DNA of 24,521 nucleotides from a virus, in the IMG/VR virus record IMGVR_UViG_3300048546_000630, positions 1-24,521 of that record; one strand, given 5' to 3'. Below, piece after piece: positions 1-24,298 of the stretch; position 1 is the stretch's first letter; each line of letters opens with the position of its first letter. The notes beneath the pieces were generated by a model. The model ran no database searches and was not told where the DNA came from. It saw only the letters and a program-made list of their open reading frames with translations. Both the position numbers and the translations under genes were made by a program.

Positions 1-3000
1 ATGATTCTAATACATCAAATAGTGATTTATCAATATATCTTACTAATTGAATGTATTCACCTATATTTAATGTATATCTATCAAAATAATAATTTCTTAA
101 TTTACTTAATTCACCATAATTATCTCTAAATTCATCTCGTGGGTCTCCTATGTAATCATCAAGATTAAATCCACCAATAGATTTCATTATATCTAAATTT
201 ATTTCTTTTGTAGGAGAGAAAAATAATCCTAACTTATCACTATCTAGTGGAGATTGGTCAAATGATTTTTTAGTTGCTCTATTTCTGTATGATAAATCTG
301 TTATTTTAGTTTGTGATTCGAATCTTACTTTATTACCAAAACTATAACCTGCAGATGGAACTTCAGCAGTTACATCTCTATCAAATATTACATATTGATA
401 TGGGTAATCTGTTATAGATGGGAAATCAGAAGCTGTTGCGAATGTTCCATAAGTTCTACCAACAGATACATTCTTTATAAACTGGTCACCTCCACTATGT
501 CTATTTTTAGGATGTTCAAAATCTAATCTAAACATTAAATCTTCAGTTGATGAAGAAATATGATTTCCATTTATTGCCTCTGGCATTAATGTATGGTTAC
601 TAATAACTGATTCACTAAGAGGAGATGACCATAATCTAACTTCATCAATTGAACCTGTTAGAGTAGAACCTCCTACTTTTAATTGATATCCATCATCCCA
701 ACCATTATCACTAGCTGGAACATATACAGTAGCTAATGCACTATTTCTTATTCTTTCTTTATATCCTTCTTTTAAGTAAACATCTATTCTATCATCATTA
801 CCACCACTACCAGTTATTCTATTAATCGCTATTTGAGTAAACTCATCATTAAAGAATGCAACTTTAGATGTAGAAGATGAAACAAATTCACTTCCACTTA
901 ATATATTAAATGTTAATGTACCTAGTGAACCTGAATTTGGATAATCAATATCTAGATTCCAACCAGAACCACTAATAATTTGTTGGTCTTGTTTTTGGTC
1001 TGTTTGTACTCTAACCTCAACACAATCAGCATGTTTTCCATTATGAGATTTCCATGGAACTATTACAGATGAAGTACCACTTATGTTTAGTGCAGCAGTT
1101 CTATCTTCAAATGTAAATGTAGTAGTTGTATCTTTATTTGCATTTTGTGGGCCACCAAATTCTACTACACTAAGTAATGATTGTGGTATTCCATAACAAC
1201 TTAATGCAGCTGATATTGCTCTCTTAGTACCTTTATGTTTCTGTAAGTATGGTAGGTTGTTAAGTAATCTTCTCCAAATTTCTTGTTGTCTATCTTTACC
1301 ACTCATTGTAGATACAACTTGACCATCTGAGTCTTTACCAAATGCATATTCCCAAAGAGCCTGAGATTGTATTCCTAAATCAGCATCGAATCCAAGAGAT
1401 TCCAACATATGATAAATAAGTTTATCATTTATTCCATTCTCAAACTTATGTTCTAATTTTTTTACTCTATTGATACCATCGATATGTGTCCATAATATAT
1501 CAAAGTGTTGGCCAATCATATCAAAGAATAATGTAAACGATTCTCCTTCTTGGTCATTTTGTACATGAGCTGGTAAGTTATTAACTAATCTTGATGTATT
1601 ATTTTCATCATGTGTTCTAGCACTTGAGATAAGTGCATTATACCAAGTAGTTACTGATGAATCAGTAGATGCGGATAATGCTGAACCTCCAGCTCCTGGC
1701 CAAGTTAATCCACTAAGTGATGAACTTGTGTATAAGAATTTTTCAAATGAATCAAATCCTTTTTTAACATCATTAATTTTACCAAGAGTTCTTTTAGCTT
1801 CATTAGAAACAGCAACAGAACTTGAAGCTGAACCTGTTATTGTACTTGATGTTCCGCTTCCAAAATCAATTGAACTACCAGATACTAATCCATTATATCT
1901 GTTTTCATATGATTGTATCAACTTAACTTTATAAACAAAGTTTTCAGTTCTCTCTTCAGCTGATGAATATTTTATAAAATCAGCCCAATTAATTCTAGGA
2001 GTTCCAGTTTTAGAATAATATGTTCCTGTACCAGATGTTTCTACTAAGGTGTTAGATGCTGTTACAAATGATATATCTAAATTTTCTAATGAAAATTCTG
2101 ATGATGATACAAATTGATTAATAACATCATTTGATGAAGTAGAACCACTTGATATTAAATCATCTAATATTTGATAACCAATTACATCATTAACTTCTAA
2201 TGCAAAGTTAGGAGTAAGTGGAGTACAATTTTTAGAAATATCATCTATAATTGTTATTTCATCAATTAAAGGAATTGCCTGTAATTTGGATATCCAAATC
2301 CTATCATTTGGATTAAGAGTTTGAGGAAGTGGTTCATATAATTTTAATATTAATGATTTTTCTTCCTTTATTTTTTTTGTAGTATTATTAGTTAAATCAT
2401 CTTGGAATGTAGATAGTGTATCTGTATCAATACCCCAAGTTGCAATTAACTTATTAGTACCTTCTCCTAAATGTAAGTAATGAGTTAAGAATGGAGATAT
2501 TGAAGATTCAAATACTGATGTATCAAATGTATCTATGAACGCCTCTTTAATATCAGATATAAGTTGGCCTCTTCGTATTGTTAAATCACCAGCATCAAAC
2601 GAAATACTAATTTCTTCTGTTTTACCCGCAGTTACTCGATCTCCTTCTGAGTTATATGGTATTAATAATAAATCAAATTGTATTACTCCATCAACCTCTG
2701 TTGGTTTAATATTTGCAGATGATAATTTAGATACAACATCACCAACATTAAATGTAGTAAGTCCAGAACCAGGAAGTCTTCCCAATGATGTTTTGGATGA
2801 TACTACTCCTGCATATATTTGAATGTAGTTTGTATTTATTGATTGCCAACTAACATCAAATGGTACATTGTATCCTTTAAAATCAGCACCAACAATATTT
2901 TGTGGGTAATTAATATTTGTAATATCAGGACCAGGTATAAAAGCTTTACTCTCAACTGTTACTGATATTTTTTCTAGTGGACTACTTCCAGCTGCTTTTG

Positions 3001-4573: not shown

Positions 4574-4600
4574 ATCTATAAATATATTTTTACTATATTA

Positions 4601-11428: not shown

Positions 11429-12046
11429 TTATCTCTTAAACTTTTTAACAAGTTCAGAGTTATCTCTATTTAATATTCTATCTAAACCAGGTAAACCAGT
11501 TTGAACTCCTAATCCAGTTTTACTTGGTTTTGTTCCTACTGATCCATATCCCATTTTTTGTGCCATTTGAGCTCTTAAAGCCTCAGTACCACCTGCTCCA
11601 AGTGATGTATCCATATTAACTGTTTGATTAATATCTGGTTCTGCATCCATATACGAAGGTATATGAGTATTTTCAGTAACTTGTTGTGTTTGTTGTGGTA
11701 ATGAATCCAATACAGATTTACCTCCTGTTGGTCCACTACTTCTTTGTGCTTTTGTAAATGGTTTTGTTTCGTTTAAAACTTTATTTAAAATTGCATTATT
11801 TGAAAATGTTTTCTGTGGTGCAGCAATTCTTTGTTCATTTAATGCTTCTTCAGCTTTTTTAAATGGGTCTGATTCTTGTATAGGTTCTATATTTTTTTGA
11901 ACCTTTATTTTTGAATCTGATAATCTCTTCTTAACTTCTTCTTCTAATATCTTAGGAAAAGTTTTAGATAAAAAATGTTCTTGTCGTTTGGCAACCTCGG
12001 CCTCCACAAGTGTCTTTATTACTTTAATTAATTGCTTATTATTCAT
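11429..12046 (-). CDS. Unknown basic helical protein in the baseplate operon
   Basis: I do not recognise this 205-residue protein. Residues 1-50 are strongly helical and charged (KQLIKVIKTLVEAEVAKRQEHF then KILEEEVKKRL). The middle is low in hydrophobics and rich in Q, T, P and N. The C terminus is glycine-rich and then basic, ending NSELVKKFKR. It looks largely disordered, like a scaffold, chaperone or assembly factor. It begins after a 59-base gap, unusually long for this operon. That gap contains the motif TATTTATAT-T-AAGATAA ending 12 bases before the ATG, very like the leader of the first gene of the operon, so an internal promoter is possible. No Shine-Dalgarno sequence is visible. It could be the gp53 equivalent by position, but the sequence does not show it. 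Confidence 0.7.
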   Translation of the reverse strand: MNNKQLIKVIKTLVEAEVAKRQEHFLSKTFPKILEEEVKKRLSDSKIKVQKNIEPIQESDPFKKAEEALNEQRIAAPQKTFSNNAILNKVLNETKPFTKAQRSSGPTGGKSVLDSLPQQTQQVTENTHIPSYMDAEPDINQTVNMDTSLGAGGTEALRAQMAQKMGYGSVGTKPSKTGLGVQTGLPGLDRILNRDNSELVKKFKR

Positions 12047-12058
12047 TTCTAATTCTTG

Positions 12059-12075
12059 TTATCTTAATATAAATA
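12059..12075 (-). promoter_or_regulatory. Candidate phage promoter/leader motif (internal, tail operon)
   Basis: On the minus strand the sequence reads TATTTATAT-T-AAGATAA, with AAGATAA ending exactly 12 bases before the ATG at 12046. The same two blocks, spaced by two bases instead of one, stand exactly 12 bases before the ATG at 14316. Conservation of both blocks and their distance suggests a shared promoter or translation-leader element. The sequence is A/T rich, so chance similarity cannot be excluded. Confidence 0.35.
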
Positions 12076-12105
12076 TATGTACTTTAATTTTATGGTTCTA
12101 AATAG

Positions 12106-12668: not shown

Positions 12669-13904
12669 TTACTCTGTATAGTTAAGTGTTGATAATATAG
12701 TATCTAACTTTGATTTAATTTTATTAAAATCACCACGATTGTTTGGGCCCATTGTAGTTGGCCCTGCCGGTGTTGAAAAAATTTGAGCGTTTATAGCATC
12801 ACAGAGTTCAGCCATAATATCAATAAGAGTTTGTCCTCTAGCTAAAGGTTCTGTTGTTTCTTCTGTATTTAAATATATTTCTCCTTGGTCTCCTAATATA
12901 AATACATTATTATCATTTGTAGTAATTCTAACATCACCATTGAAATCCATATCAGCACCATCTAATCCATTATCTATTGTAAGTTTACCATCTGATATAA
13001 ATGAGTAGTTTCCTTTAGAGTAAAATAACATTTCAGAATCTTTTGATGATAAAACAATTCTACCACTATTGATAAGAACTTGGTCAGTTCCTTTTAATTC
13101 AGGTTCTTCCGCATATATTGGTTCTGTTTCTAATGGTGTATCAACTGTACCAGGAGTAAATTCTAATAAATGTTCTCCACTTGATAGTACAATAGTTGAA
13201 CCATCATCAACAATATCTTCAAAAGTAGGTTGACCAGGTTTTAAAGATTCTAATGATTTAGCACCTTGTCTGTTTCGTATTATGATTGTTGGAGCTAAAA
13301 CATTATCTATGTTGTTGTATCCACTAAATCTAATTGATTGTCCAAAACGAGATTGTAAAACTTTATCACCTTCAAAAAATTGTAATGGATTTATTTGAGT
13401 TGATTCAAAATACTCATTTTTTAATGCAGAATCATCACCACCAGATGAATTGGGTGTTCCTGTTTGAGAAGTTGTTTTATAATCAGATGAACCACCATCT
13501 GCAGCTTTTTCGTTTTCTGGTTGGATACTCTTTCCTACATCCTCTATGAAATTTCCTGAGTTTACTTGAGTTGATGTTATTCTTCTATAAACATTTGTAC
13601 CATTTCCAAGTGTAACTATTTCAACAGTTTCACCAATTAAAGGTAAATCTAAAATAGAATAATCAAATGGTGGGTAGTATCTAAGTTGATCAGGATGAGA
13701 TGTAACATCATCTAATCTTCTAAGTTTTACAGAACCTATTTTATAAGTACTTCTTGCTTCTCCTTCACTTTGAACTCCAGTTTCTATTATTTCAGGATGT
13801 TCTTCATTGAGTATAACATCTAAAACTATTCCAATTGAAACTTTAGTCCTTACTTTATTGGACCTACCTTGTCTTACTGCAGCGGATTGTGATTGTCTAC
13901 TCAT
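12669..13904 (-). CDS. Baseplate spike/hub protein, gp5-like OB-fold plus beta-helix, no lysozyme domain
   Basis: This 411-residue protein carries an N-terminal OB-like domain (about 20-120: KVSIGIVLDVI, RYYPPFDYSILDLPLIGETV, EIVTLGNGTNVYRR), a linker rich in S, G, T and D (about 125-165), then EGDKVLQSRFGQSIRFSG, a segment typical of marine T4-type gp5 homologues. Short beta repeats follow (STIVLSSGEHLLEF, SGRIVLSSKDSEMLFYSKG, GDVRITTNDNNVFILGDQGE) that would form a trimeric beta-prism spike. The C terminus is helical (QTLIDIMAELCDAINAQI). T4 gp5 has a lysozyme domain between OB and helix; here only the short linker is present, so peptidoglycan cutting during entry must come from elsewhere. 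The gene overlaps its upstream neighbour by 8 bases. Complete. Confidence 0.85.
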   Translation of the reverse strand: MSRQSQSAAVRQGRSNKVRTKVSIGIVLDVILNEEHPEIIETGVQSEGEARSTYKIGSVKLRRLDDVTSHPDQLRYYPPFDYSILDLPLIGETVEIVTLGNGTNVYRRITSTQVNSGNFIEDVGKSIQPENEKAADGGSSDYKTTSQTGTPNSSGGDDSALKNEYFESTQINPLQFFEGDKVLQSRFGQSIRFSGYNNIDNVLAPTIIIRNRQGAKSLESLKPGQPTFEDIVDDGSTIVLSSGEHLLEFTPGTVDTPLETEPIYAEEPELKGTDQVLINSGRIVLSSKDSEMLFYSKGNYSFISDGKLTIDNGLDGADMDFNGDVRITTNDNNVFILGDQGEIYLNTEETTEPLARGQTLIDIMAELCDAINAQIFSTPAGPTTMGPNNRGDFNKIKSKLDTILSTLNYTE

Positions 13905-14316
13905 TTGTTTTTCCCACTTTTTGTTTTAACTCTTCAACCTCATTAGTAAGTTCATCTACTTTTACATCTTGTTCATCAGCTACTTGTGAAATTGTTTCAT
14001 CTAATTGTTGAAGTAATTGTTCTTTTTCTTTATCGGATAAGAATCCCATCTCTCCTTCTGATTTATTATCAGATGCTATCATTCTTTGAGCTATAGCTGC
14101 CATTTTAATAAGTGATTCATCGTTTCTAACAGATGTATCTACTAAATCTTTTAATATTGGGCCTATAACTGCCATATCACCAGAATGTCTAATTACTTTT
14201 TTCATTTCAGCAATTAGTTCTGAGATTCTTTGTTTCTTGTTTTGTTGGTTATCATAGATATCCTTAAACAATCCACTAAGATTTTTTCCTGGAAATAATT
14301 CAAATTCTGTACTCAT
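13897..14316 (-). CDS. Small coiled-coil protein, first gene of the tail operon
   Basis: This 139-residue protein is not assigned to a family. Its N terminus reads ELFPGKNLSGLFKDIYDNQQ and is followed by helices (RISELIAEMKKVIRH, ESLIKMAAIAQRMIASD). Residues about 95-135 are an acidic coiled coil (EKEQLLQQLDETISQVADEQ, VDELTNEVEELKQKVG). It opens the baseplate operon behind a terminator and overlaps the spike gene by 8 bases, implying translational coupling and a function linked to baseplate assembly. The length resembles T4 UvsY (137), but I see no sequence similarity. Its start has no Shine-Dalgarno sequence and lies 3 bases downstream of an 11-base inverted repeat (14320-14353). Confidence 0.75.
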   Translation of the reverse strand: MSTEFELFPGKNLSGLFKDIYDNQQNKKQRISELIAEMKKVIRHSGDMAVIGPILKDLVDTSVRNDESLIKMAAIAQRMIASDNKSEGEMGFLSDKEKEQLLQQLDETISQVADEQDVKVDELTNEVEELKQKVGKTNE

Positions 14317-14319
14317 AAT

Positions 14320-14353
14320 TTTACCATATTATCTTGTATATAAATATGGTAAA
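14320..14353. repeat. 11-bp perfect inverted repeat upstream of the tail operon
   Basis: Arms TTTACCATATT (14320-14330) and AATATGGTAAA (14343-14353) are perfect reverse complements around a 12-base spacer. It lies between the terminator of the holin-like gene and the ATG at 14316, only 3 bases from that ATG. It could be an operator for a dimeric regulator or a hairpin in the leader RNA that masks the start codon. It overlaps the candidate leader motif at 14329-14346. Confidence 0.6.
14329..14346 (-). promoter_or_regulatory. Candidate promoter/leader motif of the tail operon
   Basis: The minus strand reads TATTTATAT-AC-AAGATAA, with AAGATAA ending 12 bases before the ATG at 14316, matching the element before 12046. 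It immediately follows a terminator, so a promoter is needed here for the tail genes. It lacks a -35/-33 TTG at a proper distance, as expected if a gp55-type sigma uses only a -10-like element. Motif identity is inferred. Confidence 0.4.
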
Positions 14354-14652: not shown

Positions 14653-14956
14653 AGTATATCTCCTCTGTTTATAATTAAAAGTATTATAACCTCTTCCTTA
14701 TTTAAAACATCGGACATCATTTATATGTCAACAATAACTATGGTATATATGATAAAAAAAATTCCAATATATATTCAACCCCCAATTAAAGAAGTGTATG
14801 AAAGGTTTATATATTTATGTACAAAAAAACCCCATCGGAATGATGGAGTTTTATACTAACCACTTTGTTATACGATTAGAGATTTAATGAGGAATTTTAT
14901 AACCTATTATTAGTGTCCTCTATCTTCATATAAGTATATGTTCACTTGCCGATAAC
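14653..14956. other. 304-base intergenic region: terminator plus leader of the holin-like gene
   Basis: No gene of useful length and no tRNA-like fold was seen on either strand. From the carbamoyltransferase stop leftward it contains about 105 bases of unassigned A/T-rich DNA, the terminator at 14823-14852, then about 170 bases of leader. The leader holds CATAAATA (14812-14819, minus), a TATATATTGGAATTTTTTTT block (14754-14773), TATAAATG (14718-14725, minus, one base from the T4 late octamer), a weak TTTT-N20-TACTTTTA (14676-14707) and AGAGGAG just before the ATG. Which of these is the real promoter cannot be settled by eye. Confidence 0.6.
14823..14852 (-). terminator. Intrinsic terminator after the carbamoyltransferase operon
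   Basis: An 11-bp stem (14826-14836 with 14842-14852) closes a 5-base loop; in minus-strand RNA all positions pair, one as U-G. It ends in seven T residues on the minus strand (14829-14823). It lies about 105 bases after the carbamoyltransferase stop and marks the end of the right-hand transcription unit. Confidence 0.88.
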
Positions 14957-16657
14957 TTATAATATTTTCTTTTTGATAATATAGTTGTTAAGTATTAAAG
15001 TATCCATTTCACAATTTAAAAATGTTTTAATTGCATCTTCTGATGTAAGAACCATTGTTTGGTCTTTTAAATTAAATGAAGTATTAATTACAATTGGAAA
15101 CTTATTTTTCTTTTCTAAACTATCAAGTAACTTATATATTCTTCTATGTTGTATTTTATTAACAGTTTGTATTCTTGCCGAACCATCTATATGTGTTATA
15201 GCTGGTAATTCTTTTTTATACTCATCTCTAACCTTTACAACCTGATTCATATATGGAACAGTATCTTTGTAATGAAAATATTTATTGGAACTAGATTCTC
15301 GTACCATTGGTGCAAATGGTCTGAATCCTTCTCTCTTTTTTATAACTCTATTTAAACGAGATTTCATTTGAGGGTCTCTTGGGTTTGCAAGTATAGAACG
15401 ATTACCCAATGCTCTTGCTCCAAATTCCATTCTACCCTCAACCCATCCAATAACATTACCATCTTTAATTTCTTCAGCAACAATATCCACAATCTGTTCA
15501 TGTAGTTTTCTCTCATACCAAACATCCTTATCATATTTTTCTAATGTAGATAATATATTATCAGTAGTAACAGGAGGGCCTAAGAATGGATTAGAGTTAT
15601 CAACTCTAACTTCTGATTTACTATAATAATAATGTAAAGCACATCCAATAGCCGAACCAGCATCTGAAGGAGCTGGTGGTATGTATAGGTTTTTAAACTT
15701 TGTTCTTTTTAGAATCTTTCCATTAGCAGTACCATTATATGCACATCCTCCACTTAAACACAAGTTATCTGATTTTGTTAAATGATATAATTTATCTAAT
15801 AATCTAAAAAATAGATATTCATAAATTAATTGTAAACAAGCTGCTATATCCTTATGTTCTTGTTTTAAATCCTCTTCAGGTAATCTGTTTGGTATTTCAA
15901 ATAGTTCTGATAGTTTTTCGTTGAACATAGTATTAGTTGAATACTCATATGTAAAATAATCCATATTCAATTCAAATCCCCCTCCATTAGTTTCTTTATA
16001 TAGTTTTTTAAACTTATCTAGATATGGAGAAACATTCCCATATGGTGCCAACCCCATAACTTTATATTCACCTTCGTTTGGTTTGAATCCTAAGAAGGAA
16101 GTTATAGTAGAATATAACATTCCTAATGAGTGAGGAAAATCTATTGATGATAATTTAGTAATATCCGTATCACCAGAAGCTATACAGGTTGTTTCCCACT
16201 CACCCACACCATCTACTGATAATATAGCCGATTTACCAAATGGTGAAGTATAGTGAGCATATGCTAAATGTGATAGATGGTGGTCACAATAAACTATTTT
16301 TGTATCTTTACCACACAAATCATCTAGTTGTTCTTTTATATCATTGTATAATTTTTTGTTTCGTGAAATTATACTTTTTCTACTAAGAAAGTTTGTCCAT
16401 CCACCTTTCTTAGTTGATTCTGTAATTCTTTCTAATTTTAAATCAGGATTTTCATAGAAACAAATAACCTCTAAGTTATCTGGAGTGAGGGAGTGTTCAT
16501 TTAGTAGCCAATTAATAGTGTTAATCGGAAATGATAAATCGTGTTTTATTCCTGTAAATCTTTCTTCTTCACATGCACCCAATACTTTACCATCTTTAAT
16601 TAAAGAGGCAGCTGAATCATGATATCCGCAACTTATTCCTAAAATATAACCTTTCAT
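14957..16657 (-). CDS. Carbamoyltransferase, NodU/CmcH/TobZ family
   Basis: This full-length 566-residue enzyme has both family domains. The N-terminal ASKHA-like (YrdC/Kae1-type) part shows GISCGYHDSAA (7-17), CEEERF (29-34), the metal-binding HHLSH (126-130), SVDGVGEWETT (147-157) and LSGGCAYNGTANG (301-313). The C-terminal domain shows EGRMEFGARALGNRSILANP (406-425), GFRPFAPM and INTSFN. The family moves the carbamoyl group from carbamoyl phosphate, through carbamoyl-AMP, to a hydroxyl of a sugar or nucleoside-like acceptor. The substrate is unknown here. The start lies 5 bases after the sigma-factor stop, so it is the last gene of its transcription unit and ends before a terminator. Homologues are known in marine T4-type phages; two glycosyltransferase-like genes and a nucleotidyltransferase upstream suggest a sugar acceptor, which is inference. 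Confidence 0.93.
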   Translation of the reverse strand: MKGYILGISCGYHDSAASLIKDGKVLGACEEERFTGIKHDLSFPINTINWLLNEHSLTPDNLEVICFYENPDLKLERITESTKKGGWTNFLSRKSIISRNKKLYNDIKEQLDDLCGKDTKIVYCDHHLSHLAYAHYTSPFGKSAILSVDGVGEWETTCIASGDTDITKLSSIDFPHSLGMLYSTITSFLGFKPNEGEYKVMGLAPYGNVSPYLDKFKKLYKETNGGGFELNMDYFTYEYSTNTMFNEKLSELFEIPNRLPEEDLKQEHKDIAACLQLIYEYLFFRLLDKLYHLTKSDNLCLSGGCAYNGTANGKILKRTKFKNLYIPPAPSDAGSAIGCALHYYYSKSEVRVDNSNPFLGPPVTTDNILSTLEKYDKDVWYERKLHEQIVDIVAEEIKDGNVIGWVEGRMEFGARALGNRSILANPRDPQMKSRLNRVIKKREGFRPFAPMVRESSSNKYFHYKDTVPYMNQVVKVRDEYKKELPAITHIDGSARIQTVNKIQHRRIYKLLDSLEKKNKFPIVINTSFNLKDQTMVLTSEDAIKTFLNCEMDTLILNNYIIKKKIL

Positions 16658-16662
16658 TTATT

Positions 16663-17442
16663 CTATAAATAATCATTATCTATATAAGGATTTGAATCAA
16701 TATCTTTTTGTCCATCCTCTTTAGCAGACCAAAAATCTTTTCTTCTTGGTTCTCTGAATTCACCATATTCTAAATAATCATTTAACATTTTCTTTTGATG
16801 TTTCTTCATTACATTTACAACCTTAGTAATATAATGAGTTTTACAATCTGTCATTTCTCTTATTAAAAGATATAAATGTTTTTTGTTAAAGTTTTCAATG
16901 TACTCACTTCTTCTAAATAATTCTAATATTGCATCTGCTATTTGTAAATCTCTTTTCTTAACAAATACATTGTTTAAATTATTATCCCAATACTTTAACA
17001 TTATATTTTTAAATTCTTTAAACTCATTGTTTTCAGATTCCTCATTAAAATCATTTTCAGGATTCCATGTTTCTGGCATTGCAGATAAAAGGGAATTTTG
17101 TTTCCATCTTTTATAGTTACCATTGTTCTTTAAAATCAAATGGTTCTTTGCAATAATAGTAAAGTAAGAAAATGCTCTACCTTTACCTTCTTTAAACATA
17201 TGAATTTTTTCTACCATTGTAGAAACTACTTCTGTTTGAATATCTTTTTTGGATACATCAAAATAAGAAAACTTAAATGTATTTAATACATTTTCTGCTA
17301 ATTTTTCAAATGGATATTTGATTCTTGTTTCATAAATTTCAGACCTTTTTTGTGAGTCTTTACATTTATTATACTCTATAATTGCTTCTTGAGCTGGAGC
17401 GCCAAAGTAAATCTTGGACTTTTTTCTTCTAGGTTTCGGCAT
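16663..17442 (-). CDS. 55: gp55-like sigma factor for late transcription
   Basis: This 259-residue protein is longer than T4 gp55 (185). Residues about 40-110 resemble sigma region 2: RIKYPFEKLAENVLNTF, then EVVSTMVEKIHMFKEGKG and RAFSYFTIIAKNHLILKNN, the last being the characteristic segment of gp55 homologues in marine T4-type phages. The remainder is charged and helical; the C terminus ends DNDYL. gp55 binds host core RNA polymerase and directs it to late promoters through a short -10-like element, with the sliding clamp as activator. It follows the small membrane gene by 2 bases and precedes the carbamoyltransferase by 5. Its start has no Shine-Dalgarno sequence. Assignment is by motif recognition; a full comparison would settle region 4-like parts. 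Confidence 0.8.
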   Translation of the reverse strand: MPKPRRKKSKIYFGAPAQEAIIEYNKCKDSQKRSEIYETRIKYPFEKLAENVLNTFKFSYFDVSKKDIQTEVVSTMVEKIHMFKEGKGRAFSYFTIIAKNHLILKNNGNYKRWKQNSLLSAMPETWNPENDFNEESENNEFKEFKNIMLKYWDNNLNNVFVKKRDLQIADAILELFRRSEYIENFNKKHLYLLIREMTDCKTHYITKVVNVMKKHQKKMLNDYLEYGEFREPRRKDFWSAKEDGQKDIDSNPYIDNDYL

Positions 17443-17444
17443 TT

Positions 17445-17720
17445 TTAGATTTCGTTGTTTAGGTTGTCAATCATTTTTGTAAGTTCAGAAAACGAAGCTC
17501 CCACCTCATCATCTTTTTCAAATACTTGTCTATTATCAATATCTTTCATTTTTTGTAAAGTATTACCAATGCGATTTCTAATATCTGAAATTGTTGAAAC
17601 TACTTTATCTTCTAATTGTTCATTCTGTATTAATAAGTTTCTTATTCCAATAATTAAAATGAAATTAATTAAAATAGATACTCCAATAACTACATTAGAT
17701 ATGGTTAATAGTTCTATCAT
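17445..17720 (-). CDS. Small single-span membrane protein with coiled coil
   Basis: This 91-residue protein has one N-terminal membrane span (about 8-30, SNVVIGVSILINFILIIGI) followed by a helical soluble part (about 33-62, QNEQLEDKVVSTISDIRNRI) and a conserved-looking acidic stretch FEKDDEVGASFSELTKMID. There is no signal-peptidase site, so it is probably a membrane-anchored coiled coil with a cytoplasmic or periplasmic tail; topology cannot be fixed. It lies between the exported lysozyme-like gene (9 bases) and the sigma factor (2 bases). Position beside the lysozyme suggests a spanin or lysis accessory, but nothing in the sequence proves this. No Shine-Dalgarno sequence precedes the ATG; the leader is A-rich. 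Confidence 0.75.
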   Translation of the reverse strand: MIELLTISNVVIGVSILINFILIIGIRNLLIQNEQLEDKVVSTISDIRNRIGNTLQKMKDIDNRQVFEKDDEVGASFSELTKMIDNLNNEI

Positions 17721-17729
17721 GTTTTTGTT

Positions 17730-18317
17730 TTAATTTAAGTTAATATCGTATCCACTAAATTTCTCCATGTACGATGTAATTTTTGTTCCGTTTCCATCTT
17801 TAAAAACTTTACCATTTTTAAAGTATCGTTTTACTGAACCTTGTCCTCCAAGATGAGCAGCTGCCAATATACCACTTTCTGAAATATACATACCATTAAT
17901 GGTTTGTCCATCGAATACATCAATGTACTTTTGTAATTTTTCTTTGTTGTGTAATAATAACGCCATCATTGCTTCTTCTTGTAGTTGTGGGTTACTTAAG
18001 AATTCTTTTTTTGTTACTTTGAATCCTAATCCTTTTAGAGTACTTCTTCCAAATTGGTATTTACCCATGTATCCCCATTTGTTTGTAACAGTATAATCGT
18101 TACTAGATTCTCTAAATCCAACAGCATCTAGAAACTTTTCTAATTCTTCTTGATGATATTGTTTAAGTTTTAATTCCTCAGCTTGTTTTCTGAGTTCTTC
18201 TGATTCTAATAATTCGGTAATAATGGGTTTTTTACTTCCATCATTTAAAGCCGCTGAATCAATCATTCCAAACGATAGTAAAGTAACTATCGTGGCTAAT
18301 ATTATAGGTTTTCTCAT
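17730..18317 (-). CDS. Exported lysozyme/transglycosylase-like muralytic enzyme (probable endolysin)
   Basis: This 195-residue protein starts with a signal peptide (MRKPIILATIVTLLSFGMID, likely cleaved after SAA near residue 23). A charged helix follows (about 33-60), then a lysozyme-like core: GFRESSNDY with the probable catalytic Glu at 70, and NKWGYMGKYQFGRSTLKGLG (79-98), resembling the goose/SLT-type fold, then ISESGILAAAHLGGQGSVKRY. The family cleaves the glycan backbone of peptidoglycan. Secretion by the host Sec system would place it in the periplasm without needing a large holin hole. It has its own Bacteroidota-type promoter (18348-18379) and the best ribosome site in the window (AAGGAG, 18325-18330, 7 bases from the ATG). 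The exact glycosidase class is not settled. Confidence 0.8.
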   Translation of the reverse strand: MRKPIILATIVTLLSFGMIDSAALNDGSKKPIITELLESEELRKQAEELKLKQYHQEELEKFLDAVGFRESSNDYTVTNKWGYMGKYQFGRSTLKGLGFKVTKKEFLSNPQLQEEAMMALLLHNKEKLQKYIDVFDGQTINGMYISESGILAAAHLGGQGSVKRYFKNGKVFKDGNGTKITSYMEKFSGYDINLN

Positions 18318-18324
18318 AAAGTTT

Positions 18325-18330
18325 CTCCTT
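18325..18330 (-). promoter_or_regulatory. Strong Shine-Dalgarno site of the lysozyme-like gene
   Basis: AAGGAG on the minus strand, 7 bases before the ATG at 18317. It decides this start and contrasts with the A/T-rich, Shine-Dalgarno-free leaders of most neighbours. Confidence 0.85.
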
Positions 18331-18347
18331 TTGATTAAACTATACTA

Positions 18348-18379
18348 CTAATATACGAAAAAAATTCCATATATACAAG
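18348..18379 (-). promoter_or_regulatory. Bacteroidota-type promoter for the lysozyme-like gene
   Basis: The minus strand reads CTTG (18379-18376), 20 bases, then TATATTAG (18355-18348). This matches the -33 TTG and -7 TAnnTTTG elements of Bacteroidota primary-sigma promoters with one mismatch in the -7. The spacer ends in TTTTTTTCG, as at the 20259-20290 promoter. It lies about 30 bases before the ATG. Confidence 0.6.
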
Positions 18380-18394
18380 CTTTTTCAAGATTAT

Positions 18395-18688
18395 TTAAGC
18401 TTCACCCATTGGGCCGTAATATAGTCCTCTCATAACTGAATCTTCGTTAAAATCATCTGAATCGAAGATTCCTTCATCAAAACTATTTCCTAAATCGTTT
18501 AATATTTCTTTATTTTCTAAGACCATATCTTCTATTTCTCCTATGTTATCATCAAGAGCTTTTTGAAAATCTTGTTCCGAAATAATATCATTCTCGATTA
18601 ATACATCAAGAAGAGTTTGGGTTATTATCGTTTGATTAAGTAATTTACTACTTAATTTTTTTATTATTTCCTTTGATCTTAAGTTCAT
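18395..18688 (-). CDS. Small acidic protein of unknown function
   Basis: This 97-residue protein is not recognised. The N terminus is basic (MNLRSKEIIKKLSSKLLNQ), followed by a helical segment TLLDVLIENDIISEQDFQKA that resembles a short helix-turn-helix-like or docking motif, then a strongly acidic region (NIGEIEDMVLENKEILNDLG and DEGIFDSDDFNEDS) ending GLYYGPMGEA. The start codon lies 41 bases inside the preceding gene, in another frame; no later in-frame ATG before residue 54 offers a better start, so the overlap is kept. It is the last gene before the lysozyme promoter. Confidence 0.65.
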   Translation of the reverse strand: MNLRSKEIIKKLSSKLLNQTIITQTLLDVLIENDIISEQDFQKALDDNIGEIEDMVLENKEILNDLGNSFDEGIFDSDDFNEDSVMRGLYYGPMGEA

Positions 18689-18914
18689 CTAATAAATCTT
18701 TTAGGTTATTTCTATCTTCTTCTCCGTAAATTAAATCACCAAAAGCTCTTGTGATTGTTTTATTAGTGTACCCCATTGCCGATGCAAGTCTTACACAGAC
18801 TACTTTATATTCTTGAATATCCATATCATCTGGTACATCAAGTTCTATTTTACTTGCTTCTCTATTGTTCTCTACAAAGTCTTTGTCTGTATATGTAAAT
18901 ATAAGTTTTCCCAT
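18648..18914 (-). CDS. Small conserved-looking phage protein of unknown function
   Basis: This 88-residue protein begins MGKLIFTYTDKDFVENNREA, then VPDDMDIQEYKVVCVRLASA and MGYTNKTITRAFGDLIYG, and ends in a lysine-rich tail. The middle is helical with a small hydrophobic core, suggesting a compact soluble protein. It begins 11 bases after the deformylase stop and overlaps the next gene by 41 bases. There is no Shine-Dalgarno sequence; the leader is AACTAAAA. No function can be given. Confidence 0.7.
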   Translation of the reverse strand: MGKLIFTYTDKDFVENNREASKIELDVPDDMDIQEYKVVCVRLASAMGYTNKTITRAFGDLIYGEEDRNNLKDLLDELKIKGNNKKIK

Positions 18915-18925
18915 TTTTAGTTAAA

Positions 18926-19537
18926 TTATAAGATTTCAGCTCCCTCTGAAAGTAAAGGTTCAGCCTTTTTGTATTTCATAAATTCAGTAGAGCCATCTGA
19001 TAGTTTTACCATCACTCTTTCGTTTCTACCATATTTCTTTCCTCTTGTGATAGTTTCAGTATATCTTCTTGATGTATCTGTTATGAGAATACCATTTAAA
19101 TGGTCTATCTCATGTTGAGCACATACACACTCTAATAATCCTTCATCACCAAAAAATTCATTTGAATCTTTCCATTCTGTTTTATCAGGTGAAAATATAA
19201 CTGTTCCTAAGTTATCACACTCTATTGTAAATGATTTATGTCTTACTGTTTTAACTGGTTTACGCATTGATTTATCTAACGATAAACATTGTTCTATATA
19301 AGCAACTGTTTGTTCTGATGCTTCTGTAACCCTTGGGTTAACTAATATCAATGGTTCTTTTACATTTATTAAACACACTCTATCTGTTAATCCTATTTGG
19401 TTTGCAGATAATCCTAATCCACCATGCTTTTCTAATTCTTTTTTTAATTTATCAGAAATAGTATCAATATCTGATTGAGACATTGGTCTTGGTAAAAGTG
19501 TTGTTCTTAATTTACTTGGGTCTTTAATTAATTTCAT
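18926..19537 (-). CDS. def: Peptide deformylase
   Basis: This 203-residue enzyme shows all three deformylase motifs: GLGLSANQIG (40-49; usual GxGxAAxQxG), EQCLS (82-86; usual EGCLS, metal-ligand Cys84) and QHEIDHLNG (141-149; metal ligands His142 and His146, catalytic Glu143). It removes the N-formyl group from nascent proteins on the ribosome and is a familiar gene of marine T4-type phages. A tail of about 50 residues after the core (SRRYTETITRGKKYGRNERV then a basic/acidic end) is longer than in most phage deformylases. The start overlaps the previous stop (ATGA), so the two are translationally coupled. No key residue is missing. Confidence 0.93.
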   Translation of the reverse strand: MKLIKDPSKLRTTLLPRPMSQSDIDTISDKLKKELEKHGGLGLSANQIGLTDRVCLINVKEPLILVNPRVTEASEQTVAYIEQCLSLDKSMRKPVKTVRHKSFTIECDNLGTVIFSPDKTEWKDSNEFFGDEGLLECVCAQHEIDHLNGILITDTSRRYTETITRGKKYGRNERVMVKLSDGSTEFMKYKKAEPLLSEGAEIL

Positions 19538-19767
19538 TTAAATAATTCTAATTGTTGTGAATCTGTTAATGTTTCTCTTGTGGATATATCTGCTCCCATT
19601 TTTCTACGAGTTACAGTTTTACCCCCATCTGGTGATTCGTATATCCATGCTCTATCATCAGATTTAAAAAAGTTTTCTTGTTGTAACCAATACAACTCTC
19701 TTACCTTTGAACCTAACTCAAAATCGTTAGGATATTTTTCTACTAATTTTTTTATGTGTGCTTCCAT
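19534..19767 (-). CDS. Small protein of unknown function, start chosen at the TAATG junction
   Basis: The protein read from 19767 has 77 residues (MEAHIKKLVEKYPNDFELGS...). The frame can be extended to an ATG at 19803, but that would overlap the nucleotidyltransferase by 37 bases, whereas the ATG at 19767 shares one base with its stop (TAATG), the arrangement used elsewhere in the window, so I chose it. The N-terminal half is helical; then WLQQENFFKSDDRAWIYES, and DGGKTVTRRKMGADISTRE, a short stretch I associate with small proteins of marine phages. It ends LTDSQQLELFK and overlaps deformylase by four bases. No function is assigned. Confidence 0.75.
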   Translation of the reverse strand: MEAHIKKLVEKYPNDFELGSKVRELYWLQQENFFKSDDRAWIYESPDGGKTVTRRKMGADISTRETLTDSQQLELFK

Positions 19768-20240
19768 TATTCTGCTATGTTTAAATATTTTTCTAATAAC
19801 CATGATGAAGATTGAATCTTTTTACCCAATCCCCATACTGAATCTATTCTATATGAATTACATACATCGTTCTCTGGTGTAGTTGTTTCTGTTCTATCTC
19901 CACCATTACCAAATGCCATTACACCCTTTGGTAATTCACCATGTTCGTTCATAAACTTTCTTTTTGCATGGTCAATGAAATCAATTGCCGTATCATCCCC
20001 ATGTATAAGTGGATTCATTACATAAACATAATCCACATCTCTTAATGATTCCATTATAAACTTTCGTTCACCTTCTTTCATAAAAGATTTACCTTTTTTT
20101 CTTCTTAACCAACTATCGTTGTTAAGTCCTATCCAAACCTCATCTGCTAATTTCTTAGCGTTTTGGATACATTCAATATGACCCTTATGTACCGGATCAA
20201 ATCCTCCACTAATTAAAATTACTTTATACTTTTTACTCAT
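19767..20240 (-). CDS. Cytidylyltransferase-like nucleotidyltransferase
   Basis: This 157-residue protein has the Rossmann-like nucleotidyltransferase signature SGGFDPVHKGHIECIQNAKK (11-30) with the HxGH motif at 18-21, then ADEVWIGLNNDSWLRRKKG and the late motif KIQSSSWLLEKY, an analogue of ISSTxxR that carries no arginine. The family couples CTP or ATP to a phosphorylated small molecule such as glycerol-3-phosphate, a sugar phosphate, phosphopantetheine or NMN. It most resembles the RfaE/HldE C-terminal and glycerol-3-phosphate cytidylyltransferase group by eye, so a role in making an activated sugar or polyol is possible. It starts a new transcription unit behind its own promoter (20259-20290), with an A/T-rich leader and no Shine-Dalgarno sequence. 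Confidence 0.82.
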   Translation of the reverse strand: MSKKYKVILISGGFDPVHKGHIECIQNAKKLADEVWIGLNNDSWLRRKKGKSFMKEGERKFIMESLRDVDYVYVMNPLIHGDDTAIDFIDHAKRKFMNEHGELPKGVMAFGNGGDRTETTTPENDVCNSYRIDSVWGLGKKIQSSSWLLEKYLNIAE

Positions 20241-20258
20241 TATAAACTATTTGTTATA

Positions 20259-20290
20259 CAAATATACGAAAAATATTTTACAATTCCAAA
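20259..20290 (-). promoter_or_regulatory. Bacteroidota-type promoter before the nucleotidyltransferase
   Basis: The minus strand reads TTTG (20290-20287), 20 bases, then TATATTTG (20266-20259), a full match to -33 TTTG and -7 TAnnTTTG. The spacer ends in TTTTTCG. The -33 element abuts the metK stop codon, and the -7 lies about 18 bases before the ATG, so the leader is very short. Confidence 0.68.
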
Positions 20291-21250
20291 TTATTTCCAA
20301 GAAAAGCCTGCACCCATGTGTCCAAACGCCGCAGATTCTCCAAAAATTGGTCTTTTAAGTTCTAAAAAGTCAATGATTCCTTTTGGTGATAAATCATATC
20401 CTTTAATAAATTCATGTTCTCCATCAACGATTGCAGTTGCTTGAAGAGGTTTATCATATCCAATTGCATAAGCAAGTTGAACCATCACTTCTTGTACCTC
20501 TGGTCTTTCTTCTAAGATATCTACTGCGATTCTTCTTCCCATATAAGCTGCACTCCTATCAACCTTAGTACAATCTTTACCACTAAATGCTCCACCACCA
20601 AGTGGAACTCTCGGCCCATAATTATCTACTGCTAACTTTCTACCAGTTAATCCAGCATCAGCAGTAAACCCACCAATGTTCCAATCTCCTGCAGGATTAC
20701 AATGTAATGATTCAATAAAGTAATCAGAATAATCTTCAAAATATTCCATTACTAATTGTTGTAACTTATCGGCTGGTGCATTCTGAAATGAACAAACAAC
20801 TCTAAGTGAGTTACCATTCATAGTAACTTGAGTTTTACCATCGTAAGGATATTTACTAAATACATGCTTGTTAAGTTCTCTTGATAAGAAATATTCTTGT
20901 GGTAAAAATTGTTCGTTATCTCTGCAAGCATAACCAATCATAATTCCTTGATCTCCTGCTCCACCAGTATCAACTCCATTAGCAATCTCTGGTGATTGTT
21001 TTGTAAGATGAACTATTGTATCTTCTACACCTGATATATTATATACAACTAACTTGATATCATCTTCAGTAATATCTGCCGTTGAGGTTACTTCACCGGT
21101 AACAAATACTTTTCCATTACCACCACAGGTTTCAATTGCACATCGTGAGTTTGGGTCTTGTGTTAGATATAAATCTAAAATAGTGTCTGATATTCTATCA
21201 CACATTTTGTCGGGATGTTTCGGTGAAACACATTCTGCTGTTCTAATCAT
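20291..21250 (-). CDS. metK: S-adenosylmethionine synthetase, compact form
   Basis: This 319-residue enzyme makes S-adenosylmethionine from methionine and ATP. Motifs in order: CVSPKHPDKMCDRISD (ATP-binding His12, usual GHPDK), GEVTSTA, KQSPEIANGVDTGGAGDQG (usual GAGDQG with the gating loop), DGKTQVT, IGGFTADAGLTGRKLAVDNY, GGGAFSGKDCTKVDRSAAYM, and YDLSPKGIIDFLELKRPIF. Bacterial MetK is usually about 380-400 residues; here the gating loop, the LPWLRPD region and the C-terminal tail are shortened while every motif I could check remains, so it is probably active. It starts inside the stop of the 56-residue gene (ATGA) and ends at the next promoter. AdoMet could supply methyl groups for DNA or glycan modification; that use is inferred. 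Confidence 0.93.
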   Translation of the reverse strand: MIRTAECVSPKHPDKMCDRISDTILDLYLTQDPNSRCAIETCGGNGKVFVTGEVTSTADITEDDIKLVVYNISGVEDTIVHLTKQSPEIANGVDTGGAGDQGIMIGYACRDNEQFLPQEYFLSRELNKHVFSKYPYDGKTQVTMNGNSLRVVCSFQNAPADKLQQLVMEYFEDYSDYFIESLHCNPAGDWNIGGFTADAGLTGRKLAVDNYGPRVPLGGGAFSGKDCTKVDRSAAYMGRRIAVDILEERPEVQEVMVQLAYAIGYDKPLQATAIVDGEHEFIKGYDLSPKGIIDFLELKRPIFGESAAFGHMGAGFSWK

Positions 21251-21417
21251 TGTTTTGTTATTTGTGTTTTTAAATCTTTATATTTTTTATTCCACTTAGC
21301 AATTTCTTCCTTGTAACTTTTTTTTATATTTTCTTGTTTATCAAGTTTACTTCTAAGTTCTTTATTTTGTTTTTCTAAACTCTCTATTTTGAGTTCGTAT
21401 AATCTTTGATGTTCCAT
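21247..21417 (-). CDS. Small coiled-coil protein (56 residues)
   Basis: Too short for many gene finders, this 56-residue frame (MEHQRLYELKIESLEKQNKE then LRSKLDKQEN...KQ) is an almost uninterrupted charged coiled coil. Support: its ATG is one base after the thyA stop, its TGA overlaps the metK ATG (ATGA), it fills an otherwise empty 168-base gap exactly, and its helix-breaking residue content is near nil. Heptad-like spacing of L/I suggests a dimer. No family is recognised; it could be a regulator or partner of a neighbouring enzyme. Confidence 0.7.
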   Translation of the reverse strand: MEHQRLYELKIESLEKQNKELRSKLDKQENIKKSYKEEIAKWNKKYKDLKTQITKQ

Positions 21418-21418
21418 T

Positions 21419-22240
21419 TTAATTACTTAAGGGTGCTTTAATTGTTGGGTGATATTCGTAATCTTTAATTTCATAATCCCATTCTCCATTTAAGATATCT
21501 ACATTACTTAATTGAATCGTTGGTAATTTAAACGATGTTCTTTTTACTTGTTCTTGTGCCTGTTGTAAATGGTTTTTATATAAGTGTACATCTCCTAATG
21601 AACCAATCAGTTCACCGGGTTTTAAATTTGTTTCTTCACATAGTAAAAGTAATAAAGTACCATAAGATGCGATATTAAATGGTAACCCTAAGAAAGTATC
21701 AACACTTCTTTGATTCCACATTAAAGATAACTTACCATCGTTTACATAACATTGAAATCCATAATGACAAGGTGGTAATACCATCTTATCAAGTTCTCCA
21801 ACATTCCATGCAGATACCATTAATCTTCTACTATTAGGATTTTCTTTTATATTTTTAATAAGTTGTTCTATTTGGTCAACTCTAATATGATTAACCATTT
21901 CATCATAACCAAACCAATTTCTCCATTGTTTACCATATACAGGTCCTAGTGTACCATCGGTTCTTCCACTCTTGTTGTAATCACCATCCCATATATGACA
22001 ATTATTATCTTGAAGATATTTAATATCTGTTCTTCCTTTTAAAAACCATCTCAATTCTGTCATCATAGTTTTTACTGCCATCTTCTTGGTTGTGAGTAAA
22101 GGAAATCCAATACTCATATCATGTCTAATTTGTTTACCAAATATTGATAGAGTTCCTGTACCAGTCCTATCTTCTTTTTTCTTTCCTAAGATTAATACAT
22201 CTTGTAGAATTTTTTGATAATCGTTATCTAACTTGTTCAT
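21419..22240 (-). CDS. thyA: Thymidylate synthase (ThyA type)
   Basis: This 273-residue enzyme converts dUMP to dTMP with methylene-tetrahydrofolate. It shows RTGTG (25-29), PLLTTKK, ELRWFLKG, LGPVYGKQWRNW, PNSRRL (135-140), the catalytic cysteine in LPPCHYGFQ (Cys158), QRSVDTFLGLPFNIASYGTL with the dUMP-selecting Asn189, and GDVHLYKNHL. Asn189 argues against a dCMP hydroxymethylase, which has Asp. The C terminus ends HPTIKAPLSN instead of the usual hydrophobic end such as APVAI. The start overlaps the previous stop (ATGA). It would supply dTMP for an AT-rich genome. Confidence 0.95.
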   Translation of the reverse strand: MNKLDNDYQKILQDVLILGKKKEDRTGTGTLSIFGKQIRHDMSIGFPLLTTKKMAVKTMMTELRWFLKGRTDIKYLQDNNCHIWDGDYNKSGRTDGTLGPVYGKQWRNWFGYDEMVNHIRVDQIEQLIKNIKENPNSRRLMVSAWNVGELDKMVLPPCHYGFQCYVNDGKLSLMWNQRSVDTFLGLPFNIASYGTLLLLLCEETNLKPGELIGSLGDVHLYKNHLQQAQEQVKRTSFKLPTIQLSNVDILNGEWDYEIKDYEYHPTIKAPLSN

Positions 22241-22737
22241 ATTACTGAAATATTTTTATTAAGTTCTATGCTTTCTTTTTTATTTAATAAAAAATAGTAT
22301 TTACCGTTTTTTAAGTTTAAACTATTTTTAACTTTCTTTAAAGTACTTTTATCTAACTCACATCCTTCATCATAACCAAATCTAATAACTAAATTGTTTT
22401 TACTGAAGTTAGGAACTGGTTGTGGCCATGGTTCTTGATTAAAAAATCTAATATTTTTATTTTTTAAAGAATCTACTAAATATTTTTTTTGAGTTTTAGT
22501 TGGAAGTTCATCTGAATGTGGTTCTTTATCACCTCGTACACTCATTATAATATTTTCAGAAGTATCTGTTTTTAAAAATGAAATTATACTATCCAATATA
22601 TCTGGATACAATGAAGCGTTTATAGTAATTTTTATATCACTATCTAATACCTCCATGTATGAATATATATAGAAAGAATCATTATATCGATTCATATAAC
22701 CATTTTGTTTGATAAGATTATTTACAAATGTTTTCAT
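22237..22737 (-). CDS. Unknown protein between glycosyltransferase-like and thymidylate synthase genes
   Basis: No family is recognised. Read from the ATG at 22737 the protein has 166 residues (MKTFVNNLIKQNGYMNRYND...). An ATG at 22746 would add three residues (MGK), but the 22737 start makes the four-base ATGA overlap with the preceding gene that is used at the neighbouring junctions, so I prefer it. Features: alternating strands and helices, IKITINASLYPDILDSIISF, MSVRGDKEPHSDELP, RFFNQEPWPQPVP and VIRFGYDEGCELD, then a lysine/asparagine-rich end. The mixed alpha/beta pattern and neighbours allow a small glycan- or nucleotide-related enzyme, but no catalytic motif is visible. It overlaps thyA by four bases. 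Confidence 0.75.
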   Translation of the reverse strand: MKTFVNNLIKQNGYMNRYNDSFYIYSYMEVLDSDIKITINASLYPDILDSIISFLKTDTSENIIMSVRGDKEPHSDELPTKTQKKYLVDSLKNKNIRFFNQEPWPQPVPNFSKNNLVIRFGYDEGCELDKSTLKKVKNSLNLKNGKYYFLLNKKESIELNKNISVI

Positions 22738-23432
22738 TTTTCCCATCTTTGTATTAAAGAAAATTCTTCAAATTGTTTTACTGGATGTGGTAAATAATCA
22801 TAAATATCTAATAAGGTTGTTCTTATATAAACATCAGCGGGAAGGATTCCTTTCTTAACACCTTTAATCAATTTAGCTGCTCCAATTGGATTTAGTAAAT
22901 ACCCATGAGCTCCAAACAACCACATAGTATCACAATGACACAATCCTTCTTTTTGATTCCATACTTGATAAACATCATGTTCGTTTTTACATATTGGTCT
23001 TTTGTGTATTCCATCTTCTTTGGTTAACCATTCTGATTTAAAGTTTCCATAATAATAACTTCCCCAATTTGGTTCTCCCAAATTTAATAAATCTTTATTA
23101 AAGTTTTTTAAAATGTTTAAATCAATTTTGTTATTAGTTAAAATAGCATCATGTTCAAGTATTAGTATTGGTTGATTTAGTTCCATACATTTTAGCCATA
23201 AATTATAATGAGAAAAAAATGTAGCTATTTCTGCATCAATACTTCCTGCACCAAATCTTTTTATATCTAGTATATTAAAATTTGAATCAATAAATGTTTG
23301 CCAAACATTATCTGTATTAACTCCTTTGAATAAGTTAACATCAATATCAATTTCTTTAAATACTTTTTGAGTATGTTTTGCACTTTTTATACTTCTATCA
23401 GATGTATCAACATATATTACAAAAGATTTCAT
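22734..23432 (-). CDS. Glycosyltransferase family 25-like protein
   Basis: This 232-residue protein has a GT-A-like layout: a first strand SFVIYVDTSDRSIKSAKHTQ (R at 13), then DAEIATFFSHYNLWLKCMEL, ILILEHDAIL (usual LILEDD), GAHGYLLNPIGAAKLIKG and LPADVYIRTTL. These segments parallel the GT25 family of lipopolysaccharide galactosyltransferases (E-x-x-C/F-x-x-SH-x-x-x-W, LEDD, GxxGYLIS, D-x-x-I). The Asp-Asp metal motif reads HDA, so metal use may differ. It overlaps both neighbours by four bases (ATGA at its start). It probably adds a sugar to a glycan, protein or DNA base; the acceptor is unknown. Confidence 0.78.
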   Translation of the reverse strand: MKSFVIYVDTSDRSIKSAKHTQKVFKEIDIDVNLFKGVNTDNVWQTFIDSNFNILDIKRFGAGSIDAEIATFFSHYNLWLKCMELNQPILILEHDAILTNNKIDLNILKNFNKDLLNLGEPNWGSYYYGNFKSEWLTKEDGIHKRPICKNEHDVYQVWNQKEGLCHCDTMWLFGAHGYLLNPIGAAKLIKGVKKGILPADVYIRTTLLDIYDYLPHPVKQFEEFSLIQRWEK

Positions 23433-24298
23433 ATAGATTTTATTAATTTTTCTAAATAATTATTTGCACTATCTAACATGGTATCATTAAGATATAATTT
23501 GAAAGACATATTGTGTTCTGAAAATCCTCCCTTTAAATGTGTAATAAAATCTTTTCCACTAAATTTATATATGTTAGATGAATCTGTTTTGTAATTGTTA
23601 TTTCCAAAGAAAGGTCTAAGGTGTAAAAAGGATTTGCCTTCGAGTAAACATTTTATTGTAGCTCCATGATTAGTATCACCATAACCCCAATCAACAGAAT
23701 AGTCATTAAAGAATTCTTTTTTACATAAAAAGAAATAACAATCAGCCAATCCAAATTCTTTTTGTTTTATATATCCACCATTTTCGTGTCCAATTTCAAA
23801 GTCTATTCCTAAACTATCTATGATATCTTTATTTCCTAAATAACCAGTTAAGGTAAGATGTTTAGAATCCGCCGAAACATATTCATTTGTTTTTAGTGAA
23901 TTTAATAAATTAGATAAAAGATTTTCTGAATAAAATATATCATTGTGTTGTAGTACAATATATTCTCCTATTGCATATTCAATACCAATATTATATGCAA
24001 TAGATGCCCACATACTATGATTTGTAATATCATCTATCTTGTATTTTGTTTTTATATCATCTGTTAATTCATCCTCGGTTAAATATTGTAATCCTTTTAC
24101 TATTTTTAAGTTAGGCAGTTTAATATCAGGAAAACTATTAGTATTATCTACTAATATAATTTCTTTATCTAAATCGCATGTTTTGTTTATATTCTTAATA
24201 GCCATAATAGTAGAAAATATTATCATACTACTATCGGTATCTTTCCACTCATGTAGATTATCACCTTTACTTGCAAATGGAATAATAAAACTAATCAT
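23429..24298 (-). CDS. Glycosyltransferase family 2-like protein
   Basis: This 289-residue protein starts MISFIIPFASKGDNL, the opening strand of GT-A enzymes, followed by IILVDNTNSF, then MWASIAYNIGIEYAIGEYIV and LQHNDIFYSENLLSNLLNSL, where the metal-binding D-x-D position reads HND. The later part contains ADCYFFLCKKEFF, FLHLRPFFGNNNYK and FITHLKGGFSEHNMS. The arrangement is that of a GT2 enzyme transferring sugar from a nucleotide donor. It overlaps the MORN-like gene by 8 bases and the GT25-like gene by four (ATGA), so the set is probably translated together. The acceptor is unknown; an envelope glycan, virion protein or DNA are all open. Confidence 0.78.
   Translation of the reverse strand: MISFIIPFASKGDNLHEWKDTDSSMIIFSTIMAIKNINKTCDLDKEIILVDNTNSFPDIKLPNLKIVKGLQYLTEDELTDDIKTKYKIDDITNHSMWASIAYNIGIEYAIGEYIVLQHNDIFYSENLLSNLLNSLKTNEYVSADSKHLTLTGYLGNKDIIDSLGIDFEIGHENGGYIKQKEFGLADCYFFLCKKEFFNDYSVDWGYGDTNHGATIKCLLEGKSFLHLRPFFGNNNYKTDSSNIYKFSGKDFITHLKGGFSEHNMSFKLYLNDTMLDSANNYLEKLIKSI

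Follow-up and report, generated by a model that had tools for sequence, protein, structure and literature searches.

The window analysed here (the whole stretch of DNA, a 24.5-kb virus record of 24,521 nucleotides that is a fragment of a myophage genome) contains two predicted promoters of a type designated class A. Both are on the minus strand, in intergenic DNA, a short distance 5′ of an ATG (18317 and 20240). The two sites and the genes behind them are:

20259..20290, minus strand: class A promoter 2 (predicted); -33 TTTG at 20290-20287, N20, -7 box TATATTTG at 20266-20259
19767..20240, minus strand: CTP_transf_like nucleotidyltransferase, 157 aa (Pfam PF01467, E 9.6e-13), predicted to be driven by promoter 2
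18926..19537, minus strand: peptide deformylase (Pfam PF01327, E 2.8e-22), predicted promoter 2 operon
18348..18378, minus strand: class A promoter 1 (predicted); -33 TTG at 18378-18376, N20, -7 box TATATTAG at 18355-18348
17730..18317, minus strand: first gene behind promoter 1, coding for a lysozyme/transglycosylase-like protein (E 8e-11 to phrog_27932, baseplate hub and tail lysozyme)
17445..17720, minus strand: small ORF of 91 aa, open frame only, between the lysozyme-like and sigma-like genes
16663..17442, minus strand: third gene behind promoter 1, coding for a sigma-factor-like protein of 259 aa (hhalign match to a profile of the T4-gp55 family)
14957..16657, minus strand: NodU-like carbamoyltransferase (phrog_1601, E 1e-116), last gene before the terminator
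14822..14850, minus strand: terminator-like hairpin CTCCATCATTCCGATGGGG followed by T7, read in the sequence; likely the end of the class A operon

In promoter 1, TTCG occupies positions 18359-18356, within the N20 spacer, and TTTTTTTCG lies directly 5′ of the -7 box; the corresponding sequence in promoter 2 is TTTTTCG. If the 4-5 nt distance between -7 box and transcription start found in Flavobacterium johnsoniae (PMC6847099) applies, transcripts are expected to begin near 18343 and 20254. Coordinates and letters agree exactly with the original prediction, which had described two minus-strand sites with identical N20 spacing and TTCG ahead of the -7 box. Chance occurrence in A+T-rich DNA is ruled out: the window has two copies of the full form, TTG-N16-TTCGTATATTWG, and 300 dinucleotide shuffles gave none; TTG-N20-TATATTWG is found twice against 0.14 expected. 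A search for sigma-70 promoters (TTGACA/TATAAT) in the window gave no signal (39 matches, 44.5 in shuffles). The product of 17730..18317 has a signal-peptide-like N-terminus and a weak SLT match; profile searches assigned no family to the 91-aa ORF. The interval 14957-24298 is a dense, one-strand metabolic set that includes SAM synthetase, thymidylate synthase, peptide deformylase, the NodU-like carbamoyltransferase and a glycosyltransferase 25.

Each of the two genes downstream of the sites occurs in about 60 viral contigs, and the aligned upstream regions share the element T(T/A)GG-N~15-TTCG-TATATTTR. These relatives are not independent of one another, and genes were called mechanically as longest ORFs. 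Spacing was measured by anchoring on the -7 box alone, N20 not being imposed. A -33 TTG or TAGG was found at N20 in 22 of 26 sites in G001, 15 of 15 in G003, 11 of 11 in G005, 10 of 12 in immuto, a cultured Flavobacterium phage, and 4 of 4 in phage Mel-JY01. The place orthologous to promoter 1 has the element in 25/25 distinct relatives, and that of promoter 2 in 18/18 distinct relatives with the same gene arrangement, all with N20 (the tie-break favoured 20). The identical spacing of the two window sites is thus no coincidence; N20 is a fixed trait of the whole phage family. In general, class A has TTG or TAG at -33, with G as the usual next base; a spacer fixed at 20 nt, whose last bases are TTCG; and TATATT(T/A)(G/A) as its -7 box. 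The consensus in the window lineage is TT(T/A)GGATAT-N11-TTTTCG-TATATTTR (N11 approximate), and the G005 and immuto lineages have AGTTGC at -33 and TATATTTA(G) at -7.

In 570 kb from 32 non-redundant loci, no upstream word is more enriched than TTCGTATATT (52 occurrences, 0.15 expected), and 61 of the 67 matches to TTCGTATMTTW are intergenic and just 5′ of a gene. Upstream regions with class A number 22, 12, 11, 8 and 3 in five genomes, against 0.0 expected. The -7 box is strongly strand-biased in long records: forward and reverse counts of TTCGTATMTTWR are 26/0 in a 276-kb relative (all 26 on one strand), 0/15 in 214 kb, 11/0 in 168 kb and 11/1 in immuto, where class A copies total 11-12; the reversed pattern gives 0-1 in the same records. 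Taken at the level of sequence, these data support the assignment of the two sites as promoters of Bacteroidota -33/-7 architecture, in a layout common to a large phage family that includes immuto. The exact -7 box does not occur in T4, 44RR, Moby, cyanophages, pelagiphages, Microcystis phage LMM01, crAss001 or Cellulophaga phages; Tenacibaculum phage pT24 has it once. Being absent or single in isolates of known host, it marks this phage family rather than Bacteroidota phages at large.

Could the conserved part be a terminator? In immuto (L126-L128), 14 of the 29 class A sites coincide in part with a hairpin of -6 kcal/mol or better that has the T-tract behind it, and single cases of overlap occur in L057, L118 and G003. 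At the immuto overlaps one T-tract belongs to the terminator and is also the spacer of the promoter, so that the two are compactly fused. PeSL cassettes of T4-like phages are said to combine a terminator hairpin with an early promoter, and immuto partly resembles them in its overlap of hairpin and promoter; the window sites differ in having no hairpin. We consider it very improbable that the element is primarily a terminator, or a composite cassette of the PeSL kind. Folding found a hairpin at neither of the window sites, nor as a rule in G001 (mean z 0.2 and -0.4), and -33 and -7 are conserved regardless. With z values around 0, a hairpin was rejected as the conserved part at the window sites.

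The primary sigma factor of Bacteroidota (sigma-ABfr) recognizes the consensus TTTG / TAnnTTTG (PMC6847099, PMC9723704, PMC7366714). In F. johnsoniae the -33 element is weak and six positions of the -7 box are near-invariant, G at -5 among them (PMC6847099). In our material TAHHTTTG occurs 5′ of genes 104 times in Bacteroidota loci (29.5 expected) and 8 times in other phyla (7.1 expected), and TTG in Bacteroidota loci peaks at N20-N21 from this box. Class A shares with sigma-ABfr promoters the -33 TTG and the -7 TAnnTTTG core, 19-21 nt apart, and the short 5′ leader. Both window sites have TTG or TTTG at the right distance (N20). The -7 box of site 2 matches TAnnTTTG (also as TAHHTTTG), and that of site 1 (TATATTAG) departs from it at one near-invariant position. 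Class A differs from sigma-ABfr promoters in the TTCG before -7, the GG at -33, the exact N20 and a frequent A at -5/-6; the phage sites often have A at -5, where F. johnsoniae has its near-invariant G. In most of 198 Bacteroidota genomes the TTCG form TTCGTATMTTTG is about as frequent as its reversed control. Since TTCG and the frequent A at -5/-6 are not general in Bacteroidota genomes, class A is best described as a phage-elaborated Bacteroidota promoter.

T4 early promoters, too, are of host type and conserve further bases, being “over-fulfilled” relative to the consensus (PMC2988021). Class A has the same features, a host type with additional conserved positions and many copies before early or replication genes (PMC2988021), but its base is the Bacteroidota consensus and not that of E. 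coli. The earlier suggestion that class A genes are read early fits the gene content of relatives, where the genes behind the sites are those for primase, DnaB helicase, DNA polymerase and nuclease as well as small ORFs. The suggestion that the sites have the general host form is not supported as worded, given the conserved TTCG and the frequent TATATTTA and TATATTAG boxes.

The original prediction had also proposed the loose consensus TTG-N19-21-TAnnTTTG as a marker of the host phylum, to be checked by enrichment. In the window this pattern is not enriched (5 matches, 2.7 expected) and four of the five matches lie elsewhere than at the two sites; the proposed check would have failed because its consensus was not the right one. 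The plain host consensus is not enriched in immuto either, despite its known Flavobacterium host. Against their controls, loose-pattern counts are 20 vs 1 in crAss001, 65 vs 27 in pT24, 21 vs 7 in Mosig and 12 vs 2 in S-RIM44. With enrichment in some SAR11 and cyanobacterial phages, the loose pattern fails to discriminate hosts at the genome level and was discarded as a marker.

A second motif, class B, is a single box, ATATTTATA, placed mostly 10-50 nt 5′ of genes and without a -33 partner. Its counts in upstream regions of five genomes are 32 vs 2.2, 28 vs 1.5, 12 vs 1.2, 12 vs 0.9 and 7 vs 1.2 expected. In the window there are three exact copies:

14339..14347, minus strand: class B box ATATTTATA before ORF 13897-14316, also before the orthologue in G001
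12068..12076, minus strand: class B box ATATTTATA before ORF 11429-12046, also before the orthologue in G001
4577..4585, minus strand: class B box ATATTTATA before a 1524-aa ORF (2-4573)

Three copies are not above chance (2.3 expected), and two of them recur before the same genes in G001. All three lie beyond the 14822-14850 hairpin that would end the promoter 1 operon; a second terminator-like hairpin (CCTCAC...GTGAGG-T7) is found just upstream of the 14339..14347 box. The layout is that of the T4 late promoter TATAAATA, a single box that lacks a -35 and usually stands 10-50 nt ahead of structural genes; the sequence of the box is different, and TATAAATA itself is not enriched in any of the five genomes. 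In relatives, class B is found in front of genes for portal, tail tube, hub and other structural proteins, and in immuto in front of those for terminase, sheath, tube, hub and fibres. Among genes with an immuto homologue in G001 and G003 pooled, 0 of 8 behind class A and 18 of 28 behind class B are structural (10/28 non-structural), orthologues being counted in both genomes so that these are not independent cases; those behind class A are homologues of primase, DnaB, DNA polymerase and a nuclease. Within immuto, gene classes behind A and B differ with p 4e-5 (8e-4 without three dual sites).

Of known sigma families, relatives showed only weak Sigma70_r2 matches below cut-off (G005:47645-47800 and G007:5717-5872). 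The match in G005 led to a sigma-like family with a member in each of the six genomes compared, window ORF 16663-17442 being one. Aligned by hhalign to a profile built from nine gp55 proteins (T4, cyanophages, a pelagiphage and others), the window protein scored Prob 88, E 3e-6 over 103 columns, corresponding to the region-2 core. Pfam, PHROGs and NCBIfam returned no match, and we therefore call the protein gp55-like rather than a member of gp55. For an AlphaFold2 model of middling quality (mean pLDDT 68), the PDB matches were mostly sigma factors (best E 0.03) and the BFVD matches were phage sigma factors (best named match E 0.0036). The protein shares the region-2 core with T4 gp55 and is longer, with an extra C-terminal helical region, a helical pair in the model. 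Hence 16663-17442 encodes a probable phage sigma factor, distantly homologous to T4 gp55. The order promoter 1, then sigma-like gene, is kept in 41 of 43 loci.

With class A before replication-type and sigma-like genes and class B before particle genes, the window presents a testable early-to-late switch. We infer from these arrangements which polymerase would read which box, and when. Probably, class A sites are the early promoters of T4-like Bacteroidota myophages, read by the host enzyme, and a phage sigma factor reads the late box ATATTTATA. Soon after infection, the host RNA polymerase, still unmodified and carrying its primary sigma factor (sigma-ABfr type), would transcribe from class A, whose elaborated sequence may make strong promoters, as in T4 early promoters. 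Promoter 2 would serve the CTP-transferase/deformylase operon and promoter 1 the four genes from the lysozyme-like one to the carbamoyltransferase, the small ORF and the sigma-like gene among them. Once made, the sigma-like product would guide host core polymerase to the single box before structural genes. Lysozyme function is usually late, and the lysozyme-like first gene behind promoter 1 counts against this reading, as do the class B boxes before non-structural genes. So does the sigma-like protein, in that it matches no curated family, its model is of middling quality and its PDB matches have E 0.03 or worse. The near-control frequency of TTCG in most Bacteroidota genomes, the frequent replacement of the host G at -5 by A, and the absence of plain-consensus enrichment in immuto count against class A being host-read.

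These same features feed the main rival, in which class A would be a middle-type promoter helped by a phage factor: either the sigma-like protein, its C-terminal domain touching -33, or an activator that fixes spacing and TTCG. The rigid N20, a conserved TTCG and GG not seen as a general host feature, the frequent loss of the near-invariant G, and the length and C-terminal helical pair of the sigma-like protein would all be accounted for. Against it, class A has cores of host type at -7 and -33 and is dense before small ORFs and replication genes, and no other abundant motif that could be a host-read early promoter was found in immuto or G005. We regard the phage-factor alternative as rather unlikely, though it deserves some weight, and retain host-read early transcription.

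The baseplate wedge protein of the window is 43% identical to that of Mel-JY01, labelled a Microcystis phage, and 37% to that of immuto, which was grown on Flavobacterium sp. LMO8. A Bacteroidota host is likely, mainly from kinship with immuto and in addition from the promoter type. The label of Mel-JY01 would favour a host outside this phylum, the likeness to sigma-ABfr promoters being convergent; so would the loose-pattern enrichment in Mosig and S-RIM44, and Shine-Dalgarno-like sites at 8% of genes in G001 and G003 (L142-L166), against 1% in Bacteroidota loci. The baseplate gene and phage pieces were found in none of 395 Bacteroidota genomes, a search that had no positive control and is uninformative. 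We hold such a host to be improbable: immuto, isolated on Flavobacterium, has the exact element, the sigma-like gene and the late box besides its baseplate identity, and T4, 44RR, cyanophages, pelagiphages, LMM01 and Moby all lack the exact -7 box. Mel-JY01 (PP395634.1; L125, L129-L131) has TTG-N20-TAHHTTTG in 9 upstream regions (0.1 expected), no sigma-70 type promoters, and a sigma-like gene in common with immuto; it may in fact infect a member of Bacteroidota that was present in the Microcystis culture. Thymidylate synthase was rejected as a host marker, its nearest relatives spanning Bacteroidota, Geobacillus and a single-cell genome labelled Prochlorococcus. The Prochlorococcus sp. AG-409-L21 single-cell genome (G021, L176) shows a Bacteroidota-like count of TTTG-N19-21-TATMTTTG (19, control 1, in 1.3 Mb) and may be mislabelled or mixed.

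Bacteroidota ribosomes normally ignore Shine-Dalgarno sites. In G001 and G003 such sites are concentrated at late-box genes (16/71, against 32/508 of the others; p 5e-5). Both genomes encode bS21, and G005 has bS21 without such sites. For other Bacteroidota phages, bS21 has been reported late in infection (PMC9723584). Tentatively, and with the odds somewhat against it, one may propose that these widespread Bacteroidota phages, known largely from metagenomes, run a T4-style programme in which TTCG early promoters lead to a new type of sigma factor (gp55-like core plus C-terminal domain) and this in turn to the new late box ATATTTATA, the window lineage pairing the switch with Shine-Dalgarno-led late mRNAs and a phage bS21. 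If true, transcription and translation would be switched together, on a divergent Bacteroidota polymerase. TTCG-TATATTTR with N20 would be a signature of this phage family and of its probable host phylum, and ATATTTATA one of late genes, both readable from metagenomic contigs. With a candidate phage sigma factor and its predicted target named, the use of Bacteroidota RNA polymerase by T4-like phages becomes testable in the Flavobacterium-immuto system.

Rfam gave no match anywhere in the window, including the 304-nt intergenic region 14653-14956. This region holds a terminator-like hairpin, late-box variants at 14939 and 14818, and a partial copy of the sequence upstream of promoter 1 (TATATTGGAATTTTTTT).
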